64,000 bases of DNA from Haloplanus rubicundus (lineage in GTDB: Archaea > Halobacteriota > Halobacteria > Halobacteriales > Haloferacaceae). The stretch is from contig NZ_CP031148.1 of NCBI RefSeq assembly GCF_003342675.1, forward strand, positions 372,001 to 436,000, read 5' to 3'. Positions 14,013 through 57,697 of the stretch are shown piece by piece (positions within the stretch are counted from its first letter, which is position 1; every line of letters begins with the position of its first letter). Under the pieces are notes generated by a model. It did not search any database. It was not told the DNA's origin and saw only the letters and a list, made by a program, of their open reading frames with translations. The position numbers and the translations under genes are program-made.

Positions 14013-15716
<1,704 letters not shown>

Positions 15717-15818: not shown

Positions 15819-15894
15819 CGAAAAGCGGAGCTTTTCGGTTGCAGCGAGAGCTTCGCTCTCGCCATGCCCCTGAAAGGGCGAGGCTTTCGCCTCG
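15819..15894. repeat. Array of four hairpins beside the insertion sequence
   Basis: Four successive stem-loops: 15819-15837 (CGAAAAG, loop CGGAG), 15844-15862 (GCGAGAG, loop CTTCG), 15868-15878 (CCC, loop TGAAA) and 15879-15894 (CGAGGC, loop TTTC). They are separated by at most six bases. They may include the element's left-end recognition hairpin, but one would suffice; the array resembles hairpin blocks found elsewhere in this window inside two genes. Confidence 0.6.
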
Positions 15895-44359: not shown

Positions 44360-45263
44360 ACGTCGTGCTGTACCCGCCGTCGTGGAGCATGTCGCCGCCG
44401 TTGAGGTGTTTGCCGTGCTTGGAGAAGCCGAAGACGAACAGGTTGGCCACCTCCGCGGGCGTCATCATCTCTTTCGTCCGCGCCTGTCCGAGCATCACGT
44501 CCTCGACCACCTCCCGCTCGGAGATGCCCCGCTCTTCGGCCGTGTCCTCGATCTGGTTCACCATCAGCGGCGTCAGCACGTAGCCGACGCTGACTGAGAA
44601 CCCCCGGAGCCGACCCTCGCCCTCGGCGGCGATGGAGCGCGTCAGGCCGTTCAGCCCGTGTTTGGCGGTGATGTACGCCGCCTTGTCCTGTGTGGCGTAG
44701 CGGCCGTGGACGGAGGACATGTTGCCGATTGCACCGACCCCGTCACCGGACTGCGTCCGGTTGCCCGAGGCGTCGTCAGACGCCTCGCTGTCGTCCGTCG
44801 CCCGGATGTGCGGCATGGCGAGTTTGGCGACGAGGAAGGGCGCTCGGAGCATGATGTCGAGCAGGAGGTCGTACTTCTCCATCGGGAAGTCGGGGATGGA
44901 GGCGATGTGTTGCATCCCCGCGACGTTGGCGACGTAGCGGAGGTCGCCCGCCTCGGCCGCGGCGTCGACCATCGCCGCCACGTCGTCGTCGTCGGTGAGG
45001 TCGGTCGGCACCGCGTGGATCGTCCCCGGCGCGTCGAGGTCGGCGGCTTTTGCCATCGTTTCGTCCAGTCCCGCCTCGTCGATGTCGGCGGCGACGACGG
45101 TGAGGCCGTTGGCCGCGAGGGCAATCGCCGTTGCCCGGCCGATGCCCGACGCCGCGCCCGTCACGATGGCGACCGTCTCCGGGCCGAAGCGTGGGTCGTC
45201 GAGGACGAGGAAGTCCTCGGTCGTCAGTTCGGGTTGACTGAGGTCGAAGTCGTCGGCGGACAT
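44352..45263 (-). CDS. bdhA: 3-hydroxybutyrate dehydrogenase-type SDR
   Basis: Short-chain dehydrogenase of 303 residues, NAD-dependent, predicted to oxidise 3-hydroxybutyrate released from PHB. TGAASGIGRA near 36 binds the cofactor, VANVAGMQ stands for NNAG, and the active site is Ser in NMSSVHG with YITAKHG (Tyr, Lys). Between the fourth helix and NMSSVHG there is an 18-residue insert (about 159-176, SEASDDASGNRTQSGDG-like) made of two perfect DNA hairpins and absent from the family core. It is transcribed ahead of the patatin gene with an 8-base overlap, the known bdhA-phaZ arrangement. Confidence 0.88.
   Translation of the reverse strand: MSADDFDLSQPELTTEDFLVLDDPRFGPETVAIVTGAASGIGRATAIALAANGLTVVAADIDEAGLDETMAKAADLDAPGTIHAVPTDLTDDDDVAAMVDAAAEAGDLRYVANVAGMQHIASIPDFPMEKYDLLLDIMLRAPFLVAKLAMPHIRATDDSEASDDASGNRTQSGDGVGAIGNMSSVHGRYATQDKAAYITAKHGLNGLTRSIAAEGEGRLRGFSVSVGYVLTPLMVNQIEDTAEERGISEREVVEDVMLGQARTKEMMTPAEVANLFVFGFSKHGKHLNGGDMLHDGGYSTTYE
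44745..44787. repeat. Hairpin pair inserted in the bdhA coding region
   Basis: Hairpin 44745-44761 (ACCGGA, loop CTGCG, TCCGGT) and hairpin 44766-44787 (CGAGGCGT, loop CGTCAG, ACGCCTCG), joined by TGCC. Both motifs recur in the helicase gene at 55842-55856 and 55935-55955. It keeps the reading frame. Confidence 0.75.
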
Positions 45264-55378: not shown

Positions 55379-57697
55379 TCACGGCGCCGGCGGGTCGCCG
55401 TCGTACGCGTCGAGGTCCGCGTAGAAATTCAGGATCGCGAACTTGAGTTTCTCCGGCGCGACGTCGATGAGTTCGTCCCGCTCCTCCGGCGGGAACGAGT
55501 CGCGGACGCCGTATTTCCCCATGTCGCGGGCGGCGCGCGTGTAGCGTTTGTCCAGCAGAATCCGGACGCCGAAGTCGTCGGGCGAGCGGATCACCCGGCC
55601 GAGGGCCTGCCGCGTCTTGCGGATCGTCGGAATCTCGACGGCGTAGCGCCACCCCGCCTCCCGTCGGTCGTCGTAGACCCGATCGTAGGCGTCCTGTACC
55701 GCTTCGAGGCGCTCCGAGAGGTTGGGGTAGGGGACGCCGACGACGACGACGGTCCGGGCGTCGTCGCCGTCGAAGCTCACGCCCTCGCCGAGCGTCCCCC
55801 ACAGCGAAGTAAAGAGGGTCGATCCGCCGGCTTCGCCGTTACCGGACTGCGTCCGGCTGTCGTCGGCCTCCGGCCGACTGCCCGAGGGACCGCGTCCCTC
55901 GCTGCCCGAGGAGCGTCGCTCCTCGCCGGCGGTTCGAGGCGTCGCCGACGCCTCGCCACCGTTCCGGGATGTCGAAGACGTCCCGCCCGCGACGAACCGC
56001 TGGCGGAGGTCCTCGGTCGGCGTTCCGGCCTCGTCGAGGTAGCTGTTCGCGAGGTCCAGCCGGTCGTGGTACCGCTCGGCCTCCGCGTAGGAGGGACAGA
56101 AGACGAGCGTGTTGCCGGGTGTCATCCGGACGGCGTCGGCGAGCGTCTCGGCCACCGTCGCCTGCGTCTCGGGGTCGTCGCGCTCGCTGGCAAAGAGCGC
56201 CGGGCCCTCGACGGCGAACGTCCGCCGGCGCTCCTCGGGATACGCCAGCCCGTAGGCCATCGTCACCGGATCGCTCAGGCCGAGTACGTCCCCGACCACG
56301 TCGAACGGGCGGAGCGTCGCGCTCATCAGGACGCTCGCGGCCACCTCGTCGAACAGCCCCTCGGTCACCTCCCGCGGGATGCAGGTGTAGAGTTCCGCCC
56401 GGCCGTACACCTCCCCCGTCCCGGCGTCGCGTCGCACCGCGGCCATCGGATGTCGTCCGAGGTCCGTCCCGTGACCCATCCAGTCGGCGATGAAGCCCGC
56501 GGCCTGCAGGGTGGCCGATTCCGTCCGGGTCGTCGTCTCGCCACGGCGGTAGGCCTCCTCGTACGCCTCGTCCAGCAGTTCCCCGACCTGCAGCGCGAGA
56601 TCGACCTCCGTATCGATCCCCTCGCCCTCGTAGGCGTCGAGGAAGGCGAGCGTCAGATCGTCCCGCCGGTCGTCGTTGGCGATGGCGAGGTCGTGCCAGT
56701 CGTCGCCAACCTGTTCGCGCTCGCCGAACCCGAGGGCGTCGTCGACGGCCGTCTCCAGGCCGTGCCGGAAGGCCTCGATCACGTTTCTCGCCCGCCCGGC
56801 GCGCGAATCGTCGGCCTCGTCGAGTTCGGCCAGCGCACCCTCCAGCGTCCGTGCAGAGCACGTCCGGGTCGCGTGCTCCCGGGCCGTCGACTCGACGTTG
56901 TGGGCCTCGTCGAAGACGGTGATCACCTCCGACGGGTCACGATCCAGCCACCGGAAGAAGTGTTCGCGGATCGTCGGATCGAGCAGGTGGTGGTAGTTGC
57001 AGACGGCGAGGTCGATTCCCTCCATCCCCTCCTTGAGGAGTTCGTAGCCACAGAGGCCACGCTCGTCGGCGTAGGCGTAGATCTCCTCCGGCGTCCGCAC
57101 GTCCTCGAACAGCCAGTCGTGGAAGGCGTCGGTGTCGCGGGTGAGGTTCGCGCGGTAGTGGTCACAGACGTTCGCGGCTTCGAGTTCCTCGATCTCCTCT
57201 TCCAGCGCTTCGAGTTCGTCCATCACGGCGGCGCGGGCCTCGCCCGCCTCCTCGCTCCCTGCGCGCACGTCGTCGAGGAGCGCCTCGCTGCGCTCGGCGA
57301 GTTCGCGCCGGTCCGTTTCGGCCTCGACCAGCGACCGCGTCGTCTCCTTCAGGCTCCGGCACTCCTCGTAGCCGACGTCGAGGTGACACATCGAGCCTTT
57401 GCCCTTGAAGACGACCGCCCGAATCGGCTCCTCCTCCCTGATGGCGCGGGCGTCCTCGACGAACTGGCGCATCTGCTGGTGGACGTTCGTCGTGATGACG
57501 ACGGTCCGGTCGTGCTCGCGGGCGTGCGCGAGCGCCGGCACGAGCGCCGAGAGCGTCTTGCCCGTCCCCGGTGCGCCCTCCATCAGCACGTCCTGGCCGC
57601 GTTCGAGGGCGTTGGCGATGCGGTCCATCGCCTCCCGCTGGTTCGGATACGGGTCGTCGTAGGGGAAGAACCGCTCGTACCCCGCCGTTTCTGCCAC
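55379..57697 (-). CDS. XPD/Rad3-like Fe-S DNA helicase with inserted hairpin block
   Basis: 772-residue superfamily 2 helicase of the XPD/Rad3/DinG group. Walker A GAPGTGKT near residue 42, DEAH box VFDEAHNVE near 262, and motif VI RQALGRVIRSPDDFG near 705 are present. Four cysteines in CHLDVGYEEC, NVCDHY and RGLCGYE can hold the 4Fe-4S cluster of this class. Between helicase motifs there is a low-complexity insert of about 55 residues (about 605-660) encoded by five perfect DNA hairpins. It keeps the frame and lies in a loop, so activity may survive. DNA repair or restart role inferred. The next gene upstream is separate. Confidence 0.92.
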   Translation of the reverse strand: MAETAGYERFFPYDDPYPNQREAMDRIANALERGQDVLMEGAPGTGKTLSALVPALAHAREHDRTVVITTNVHQQMRQFVEDARAIREEEPIRAVVFKGKGSMCHLDVGYEECRSLKETTRSLVEAETDRRELAERSEALLDDVRAGSEEAGEARAAVMDELEALEEEIEELEAANVCDHYRANLTRDTDAFHDWLFEDVRTPEEIYAYADERGLCGYELLKEGMEGIDLAVCNYHHLLDPTIREHFFRWLDRDPSEVITVFDEAHNVESTAREHATRTCSARTLEGALAELDEADDSRAGRARNVIEAFRHGLETAVDDALGFGEREQVGDDWHDLAIANDDRRDDLTLAFLDAYEGEGIDTEVDLALQVGELLDEAYEEAYRRGETTTRTESATLQAAGFIADWMGHGTDLGRHPMAAVRRDAGTGEVYGRAELYTCIPREVTEGLFDEVAASVLMSATLRPFDVVGDVLGLSDPVTMAYGLAYPEERRRTFAVEGPALFASERDDPETQATVAETLADAVRMTPGNTLVFCPSYAEAERYHDRLDLANSYLDEAGTPTEDLRQRFVAGGTSSTSRNGGEASATPRTAGEERRSSGSEGRGPSGSRPEADDSRTQSGNGEAGGSTLFTSLWGTLGEGVSFDGDDARTVVVVGVPYPNLSERLEAVQDAYDRVYDDRREAGWRYAVEIPTIRKTRQALGRVIRSPDDFGVRILLDKRYTRAARDMGKYGVRDSFPPEERDELIDVAPEKLKFAILNFYADLDAYDGDPPAP
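55842..55955. repeat. Five-hairpin block inside the helicase gene
   Basis: Perfect hairpins at 55842-55856 (CCGGA, loop CTGCG), 55862-55878 (GTCGGCC, loop TCC), 55883-55901 (CGAGGGA, loop CCGCG), 55907-55925 (CGAGGAG, loop CGTCG) and 55935-55955 (CGAGGCGTC, loop GCC). The linker TGCCCGAG occurs twice. The first and last hairpins match the pair in bdhA. All lie within the reading frame. Confidence 0.8.

Follow-up and report, generated by a model that had tools for sequence, protein, structure and literature searches.

A dispersed family of in-frame palindromic units in haloarchaea, and its probable young array in a helicase gene of Haloplanus rubicundus

Introduction

A gene encoding an XPD/Rad3/DinG-like helicase in Haloplanus rubicundus carries an in-frame array of hairpins that occurs in full in none of 11 further genomes of this genus. 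We consider it probable that this array is a young representative of a family of coding palindromes dispersed among haloarchaea, whose members would be mobile DNA, copied by way of a fold-back intermediate. The original prediction, made from the letters of the 64-kb stretch of DNA analyzed here (the window), had proposed a palindromic mobile DNA that becomes protein. Its coding aspect was borne out by a family of in-frame units that sister species often lack; mobility is suggested by this pattern of presence and absence, and the units show no association with Y1 transposases.

Mobile DNA that has turned into protein is known mainly from Rickettsiales, while the similar behavior described here extends widely through an archaeal order that can be cultured and has genetically tractable species. 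The clean presence or absence of units in close relatives, together with arms that vary yet remain complementary, makes 2 questions testable: by what route short palindromes spread with no recognized transposase, and how new loops arise in proteins.

A helicase gene contains an in-frame array of hairpins

The helicase (minus strand, 57697-55379) was assigned by its domain matches (Table 1). All 5 perfect hairpins predicted at 55842-55955 were found at these positions, and both the TGCCCGAG linkers and the uninterrupted reading frame are real. The predicted boundaries were too narrow, however, as comparison with relatives places the insert at 55823-55987. Within it, a split pair of GCCGGC arms (55826-55831 with 55925-55930) can be recognized. 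When the window was simulated 40 times with a second-order Markov model, no stretch of 114 nt contained five hairpins with arms of at least 6 bp, and the maximum of 4 was reached twice. Shuffling synonymous codons of the helicase gene 500 times left no more than 3 hairpins in the insert region, versus the 5 observed.

Table 1. Coordinates of features in the window.
Position	Strand	Feature	Basis or comment
55379..57697	-	XPD/Rad3-type helicase ORF hosting the insert, 772 aa	ORF; TIGR00604 rad3, Helicase_C_2, DEAD_2
55823..55987	-	Whole insert, 165 nt / 55 residues, GGTSSTSRNGG...GNGEAGG	Junctions versus relatives
55833..55922	-	90-nt step (two unit lengths) in GAA loop of older GCCGGC-GAA-GCCGGC hairpin; CGGCGA repeats flank	Alignment to G009 precursor
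55842..55856	-	Hairpin CCGGAC/GTCCGG, 6 bp	
55859..55904	-	A+B unit as model defines it: CAG-CGAGGGAC-gcg-GTCCCTCG-GGCA-GTCGGCC-gga-GGCCGAC-GAC	Best match of covariance model R1, E 3.3e-12
55862..55878	-	B-type hairpin GTCGGCC/GGCCGAC, 7 bp	
55883..55901	-	A-type hairpin CGAGGGAC/GTCCCTCG, 8 bp	
55907..55925	-	A-type hairpin CGAGGAGCG/CGCTCCTCG, 9 bp	
55935..55955	-	Hairpin CGAGGCGTCG/CGACGCCTCG, 10 bp	Core of 30-nt step missing in G009
55968..55986	-	Sixth, imperfect hairpin GGGACGTC-TTC-GACATCCC, one G-T pair	Within oldest 36-nt step
44742..44790	-	Second unit, peptide DDSEASDDASGNRTQSGD, in frame in short-chain-dehydrogenase-like gene	Missing in G005, G009, G002

In an AlphaFold2 model of the helicase (42 homologs), the second helicase domain has a loop of very low confidence (block means ~27-40) at residues 574-623, which connects a helix to a strand; the insert is modeled as a disordered loop. 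A second, unrelated stretch of variable length lies upstream of the insert, between AEAERYH and LDE in homologs, and is Gly/Ala-rich in Halorubrum.

The motifs RFV and LFTSLWG, which border the insert, are 165 nt apart in the window, whereas the spacing is 9 nt in 9 of the 11 other Haloplanus genomes, 15 nt in one, and 45 nt in one (G009). This corresponds to 3-5 residues in 10 of the 11 and 15 in G009. The net gain amounts to 156 nt, or 52 residues (55 residues versus 3 in most homologs). Among 80 named haloarchaeal homologs, no insert was found wherever the motif was readable, and nearly all others have the length of an uninserted ORF; a few are slightly longer ORFs in which the motif was not read in detail. 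The expectation that related helicases would do without the block therefore held for the 11 Haloplanus genomes and the readable named homologs.

The helicase of G009, with 92% protein identity, holds a short precursor of the array. Alignment to this precursor shows that a 36-nt step came first, followed by steps of 30 nt and 90 nt in the window species. The 3 steps add up to the net gain, and each is a multiple of 3, so that the frame was kept. The 30-nt step surrounds the 10-bp hairpin, and the 90-nt step splits the loop of the older hairpin.

Similar units are dispersed across haloarchaeal genomes

A DNA search found 48 places in the same genome that resemble the helicase block. The unit emerging from these consists of hairpin A (mostly CGAGG.. 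or CGTGG..), the linker GGCA or AGCA, hairpin B (mostly GTCGGCC or ACCGG..), and the linker GACAG, and usually spans 45 nt, or 15 codons. The exact-arm pattern CGAGGGAC-NNN-GTCCCTCG occurred 7 times in the genome, versus 0 for the reversed control, while the pattern TGCCCGAG-N8-CTCGGGCA, whose geometry was wrong, had 0 matches there. The suggestion that linked hairpins land in coding sequence also held beyond the helicase: dozens of further coding sites carry them, in frame and often absent in sister species.

A covariance model of the unit, covering 46 positions, was used with a copy threshold of E ≤ 0.1. It yielded 68 copies in the H. rubicundus genome, which was covered by searches and stretches rather than base by base, and all lie on the 3.4-Mb contig. 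The contigs C1 (225 kb) and C3 (147 kb), which make up ~10% of the genome, contain 0 of the 68. Copies were detected in 104 of 147 haloarchaeal genomes, with most in Haloplanus and in a genus (g14) that looks like Halorubrum, judging by its helicase. Many haloarchaeal genomes had zero copies, making false positives caused by high G+C less likely, and among 120 genomes drawn from the phylum, the only match outside the haloarchaeal order was a marginal one.

Rfam contained no relevant match for the units, returning only tRNAs near some loci and one chance match. The helicase block was unmatched in phage and plasmid records at E ≤ 1e-3, a sensitivity that shorter or diverged copies could escape. 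An earlier description of the family in haloarchaea was not found in the full texts of an open-access library, subscription papers being outside the scope of this search.

Arms differ among copies but stay complementary

In 21 aligned copies, part of which were picked because their hairpins were visible, paired cells were standard in 98.7%, and both sides had changed in 49 cells, compared to 12.5 in shuffles. Among 53 parsed copies, hairpin A and hairpin B each showed 27 arm sequences; counting G-T pairs as paired, 38 of the 53 copies were perfect at A and 38 at B, and the loops vary freely. The nearest neighbor of a recent copy was often 80-87% identical, and a near-identical donor was seldom present in the genome, which is odd for plain transposition. 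Some copies at different loci are 93-98% identical, and gene duplication may account for some of the copies in histidine kinases.

Copies common to this species and G005 showed few arm differences, which were one-sided in this small sample compared by eye. Rapid palindrome correction within a locus was rejected as a candidate, as complementarity is seemingly not maintained in place. Rather, copies with perfect arms seem to be the young ones, and arms of new sequence apparently become perfect during copying. In the route we favor, units would be copied through a self-folding intermediate, in which one arm serves as template for the other. Such fold-back templating would explain both the perfect, ever-different arms of new copies and the one-sided decay of old ones, although the proposal draws on few orthologous sequence comparisons.

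The palindromes could instead have arisen locally, without a mobile element, through template switching by the polymerase together with palindrome correction, with the Asp/Gly-rich codons of haloarchaea favoring convergence. Template switching (quasipalindrome mutation) likewise gives perfect inverted-repeat arms in coding DNA and homogenizes them (PMC8604942). Arms do differ among loci, the helicase array grew within the loop of an older hairpin, and the left A arm of histidine-kinase copies falls on the native N-box codons. However, template switching alters existing repeats in place, and alone spreads no shared linker or unit to many loci. A local origin does not predict the GGCA/GACAG linkers, the A-then-B order, or the 45-nt length that are shared across unrelated genes and families, and the 93-98% identity between some copies at different loci also speaks against it. 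We therefore regard a purely local origin as unlikely, and prefer copying of the units as mobile DNA.

Copy number does not follow Y1 transposases

Mobile hairpins are also known from REP/REPIN and IS200/IS605-like non-autonomous elements, whose Y1 (RAYT/TnpA) transposases recognize hairpins and act in trans. REP/REPIN elements resemble the haloarchaeal units as short, paired hairpin repeats that occur in many copies and in tandem clusters (PMC3116915). The presence of 2 hairpins per unit, insertion beside a short motif, tandem arrays, and 9 Y1 transposase genes in the H. rubicundus genome would all fit such an element. However, the number of Y1 genes was uncorrelated with copy number among 147 genomes (Spearman 0.015, p 0.86). 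No Y1 gene was present in 13 of the 32 genomes with at least 10 copies, while several Y1-rich genomes had no copies. In addition, REPs are extragenic, conserved in sequence, and linked to RAYTs, whereas the haloarchaeal units are mostly coding and have variable arms. Given that copy number is unrelated to Y1/RAYT-type transposases, the units are not ordinary REP/REPIN elements, and a Y1-driven origin appears still less probable than a local one.

No mobilizing enzyme was found for the units in this screen of Y1-type transposases. A bolder reading of the preferred fold-back copying, which we put forward only tentatively and hold to be rather doubtful, is that the units constitute a new class of archaeal mobile coding DNA. 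In this class, 15-codon, two-hairpin units would have their perfect arms restored by fold-back at each copying without a conventional transposase, and would feed disordered loops into essential proteins.

Units are present or absent in unrelated host genes

Genes hosting units in frame include those for enolase, MutL, Hel308, Trm5, TrpE, DapB, MenD, ThiD/ThiN, polyphosphate kinase, and histidine kinases, as well as a HerA-like helicase, a glucose/sorbosone dehydrogenase, and an E2 acyltransferase. The identities of MenD and Hel308 are putative, being our own reading of Pfam domains and sequence. Orthologous regions were compared for 20 loci in 3 sister species, and for 12 of these in 7 more Haloplanus genomes as well. 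Most loci compared showed exact in-frame indels of ~39-48 nt, typically 45 nt, and most tested sites were empty in some sister species. Several units were unique to H. rubicundus, including those of the Trm5-like gene (VTLAADSEGRRPSGSRPKADDDC versus VTLAGDDC) and of MutL (VHVDGAGPRSAGSRPAAGDDVTV versus VTVDGDDVTV), each found in this species alone among 11. At other loci, the unit was common to the sister G005, the difference was one whole unit (a paralog of XPD), or different units occupied the same loop depending on the species.

Precise loss of ancient insertions, between short direct repeats, could in principle produce the same pattern. The flanking GACRGCG-like repeats would permit exact deletion, and a few loci are patchy among species, but units found in only one of 11 species compared, along with the lack of the helicase insert in the readable named homologs, would demand many parallel losses, making this explanation highly improbable.

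Several observations concern particular groups of loci. In histidine kinases, eleven loci map to the N-box, and arrays occur there in the H. rubicundus genome (G000:C2:886649, 1097002, 1828742, and 2806676, among others) and at locus L391, where up to 4 units occur within one gene. These arrays read FRNSVEHGSTSSR...DDSVEHGST..., the left arm of hairpin A being formed by the native N-box codons, and they could reflect either a hotspot or inheritance through gene duplication. As a caution, such loops in haloarchaeal proteins, including the N-box repeats of histidine kinases, may be insertions rather than functional motifs.

Intergenic units adjoin a conserved stretch like TGCCCCTTTGAGTCCCACCC, both at loci L376-L382, L384, and L392-L395 and in the H. 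rubicundus genome at G000:C2:2747332 and 43248. No Rfam family covers this stretch. Several of the intergenic loci of genus g14 also carry CGCACCTCACGCCTCCCCAGCC, and some identical units recur at different loci. The intergenic copies of this genus beside TGCCCCTTTGAGTCCCACCC are a possible reservoir.

Coding units share one strand and one frame

Strictly intragenic copies used a single strand and frame in 18 of 18 cases in the H. rubicundus genome, one of which is listed one base off, with its model match beginning at position 2, and in 8 of 8 cases in other genomes. By our own, looser count, ~39 of 46 loci have the unit in frame within an ORF, and ~six look intergenic. Translation gives a hydrophilic peptide of the DSEGRGPSGSRPEADD type. 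Units are preferentially flanked by GAC upstream and G-G/A-C-G downstream. This short flanking similarity (GAC / GACRGCG) is embedded in variable flanks, too variable for an exact target-site duplication to be fixed.

The target motif was rejected as the cause of the frame bias: the opposite strand has a comparable number of target-like GACRGCG sites (33% versus 42%). The bias therefore calls for either a strand-specific mechanism or selection acting on the encoded peptide, the latter being the simplest reason. In the proposed mechanism, units would enter loops of unrelated proteins in frame, with a GAC (Asp) codon mostly preceding and GAC or GGC following, and only the orientation and frame yielding a hydrophilic, disordered Asp/Ser/Gly/Glu/Arg peptide would survive.

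That the segments were instead selected as low-complexity linkers or as mRNA hairpins functional in each gene, with palindromes as a by-product, would agree with the single reading frame of all intragenic copies and with peptides as hydrophilic as halophilic surface loops, but is scarcely credible given that synonymous shuffling of the helicase does not regenerate the hairpins, that the hosts are functionally unrelated, that sister species do without the segment, and that some copies are intergenic.

Relation to known palindromic elements

The comparison with Rickettsia palindromic elements (RPEs) drawn in the original prediction fits as an analogy. Like these and similar elements in Wolbachia, which are palindromic repeats lying in frame in many unrelated genes with the peptide kept (PMC10969869), the haloarchaeal units occur in frame in unrelated genes. 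They thus appear to behave like RPEs, which does not imply kinship. By description, RPEs are set apart by their length of ~150 bp and conserved family sequences (PMC10969869), whereas the haloarchaeal unit has ~45 nt, 2 hairpins, covarying arms, and tandem arrays. RPEs are found in Rickettsiales, while the units occur in Haloplanus and across haloarchaea.

Perfect inverted repeats inside translated genes are likewise known from the mitochondria of nematomorphs (PMC6649704). There, however, the arms encode conserved protein regions and reach up to 284 bp (PMC6649704), whereas the haloarchaeal units are extra sequence that homologs lack.

Elsewhere in the window, 2 adjacent, AT-richer hairpins lie at 15819-15862, ~130 bp from a Y1 transposase gene (15354-15692). 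These probably represent the end of an IS200/IS605-type element.
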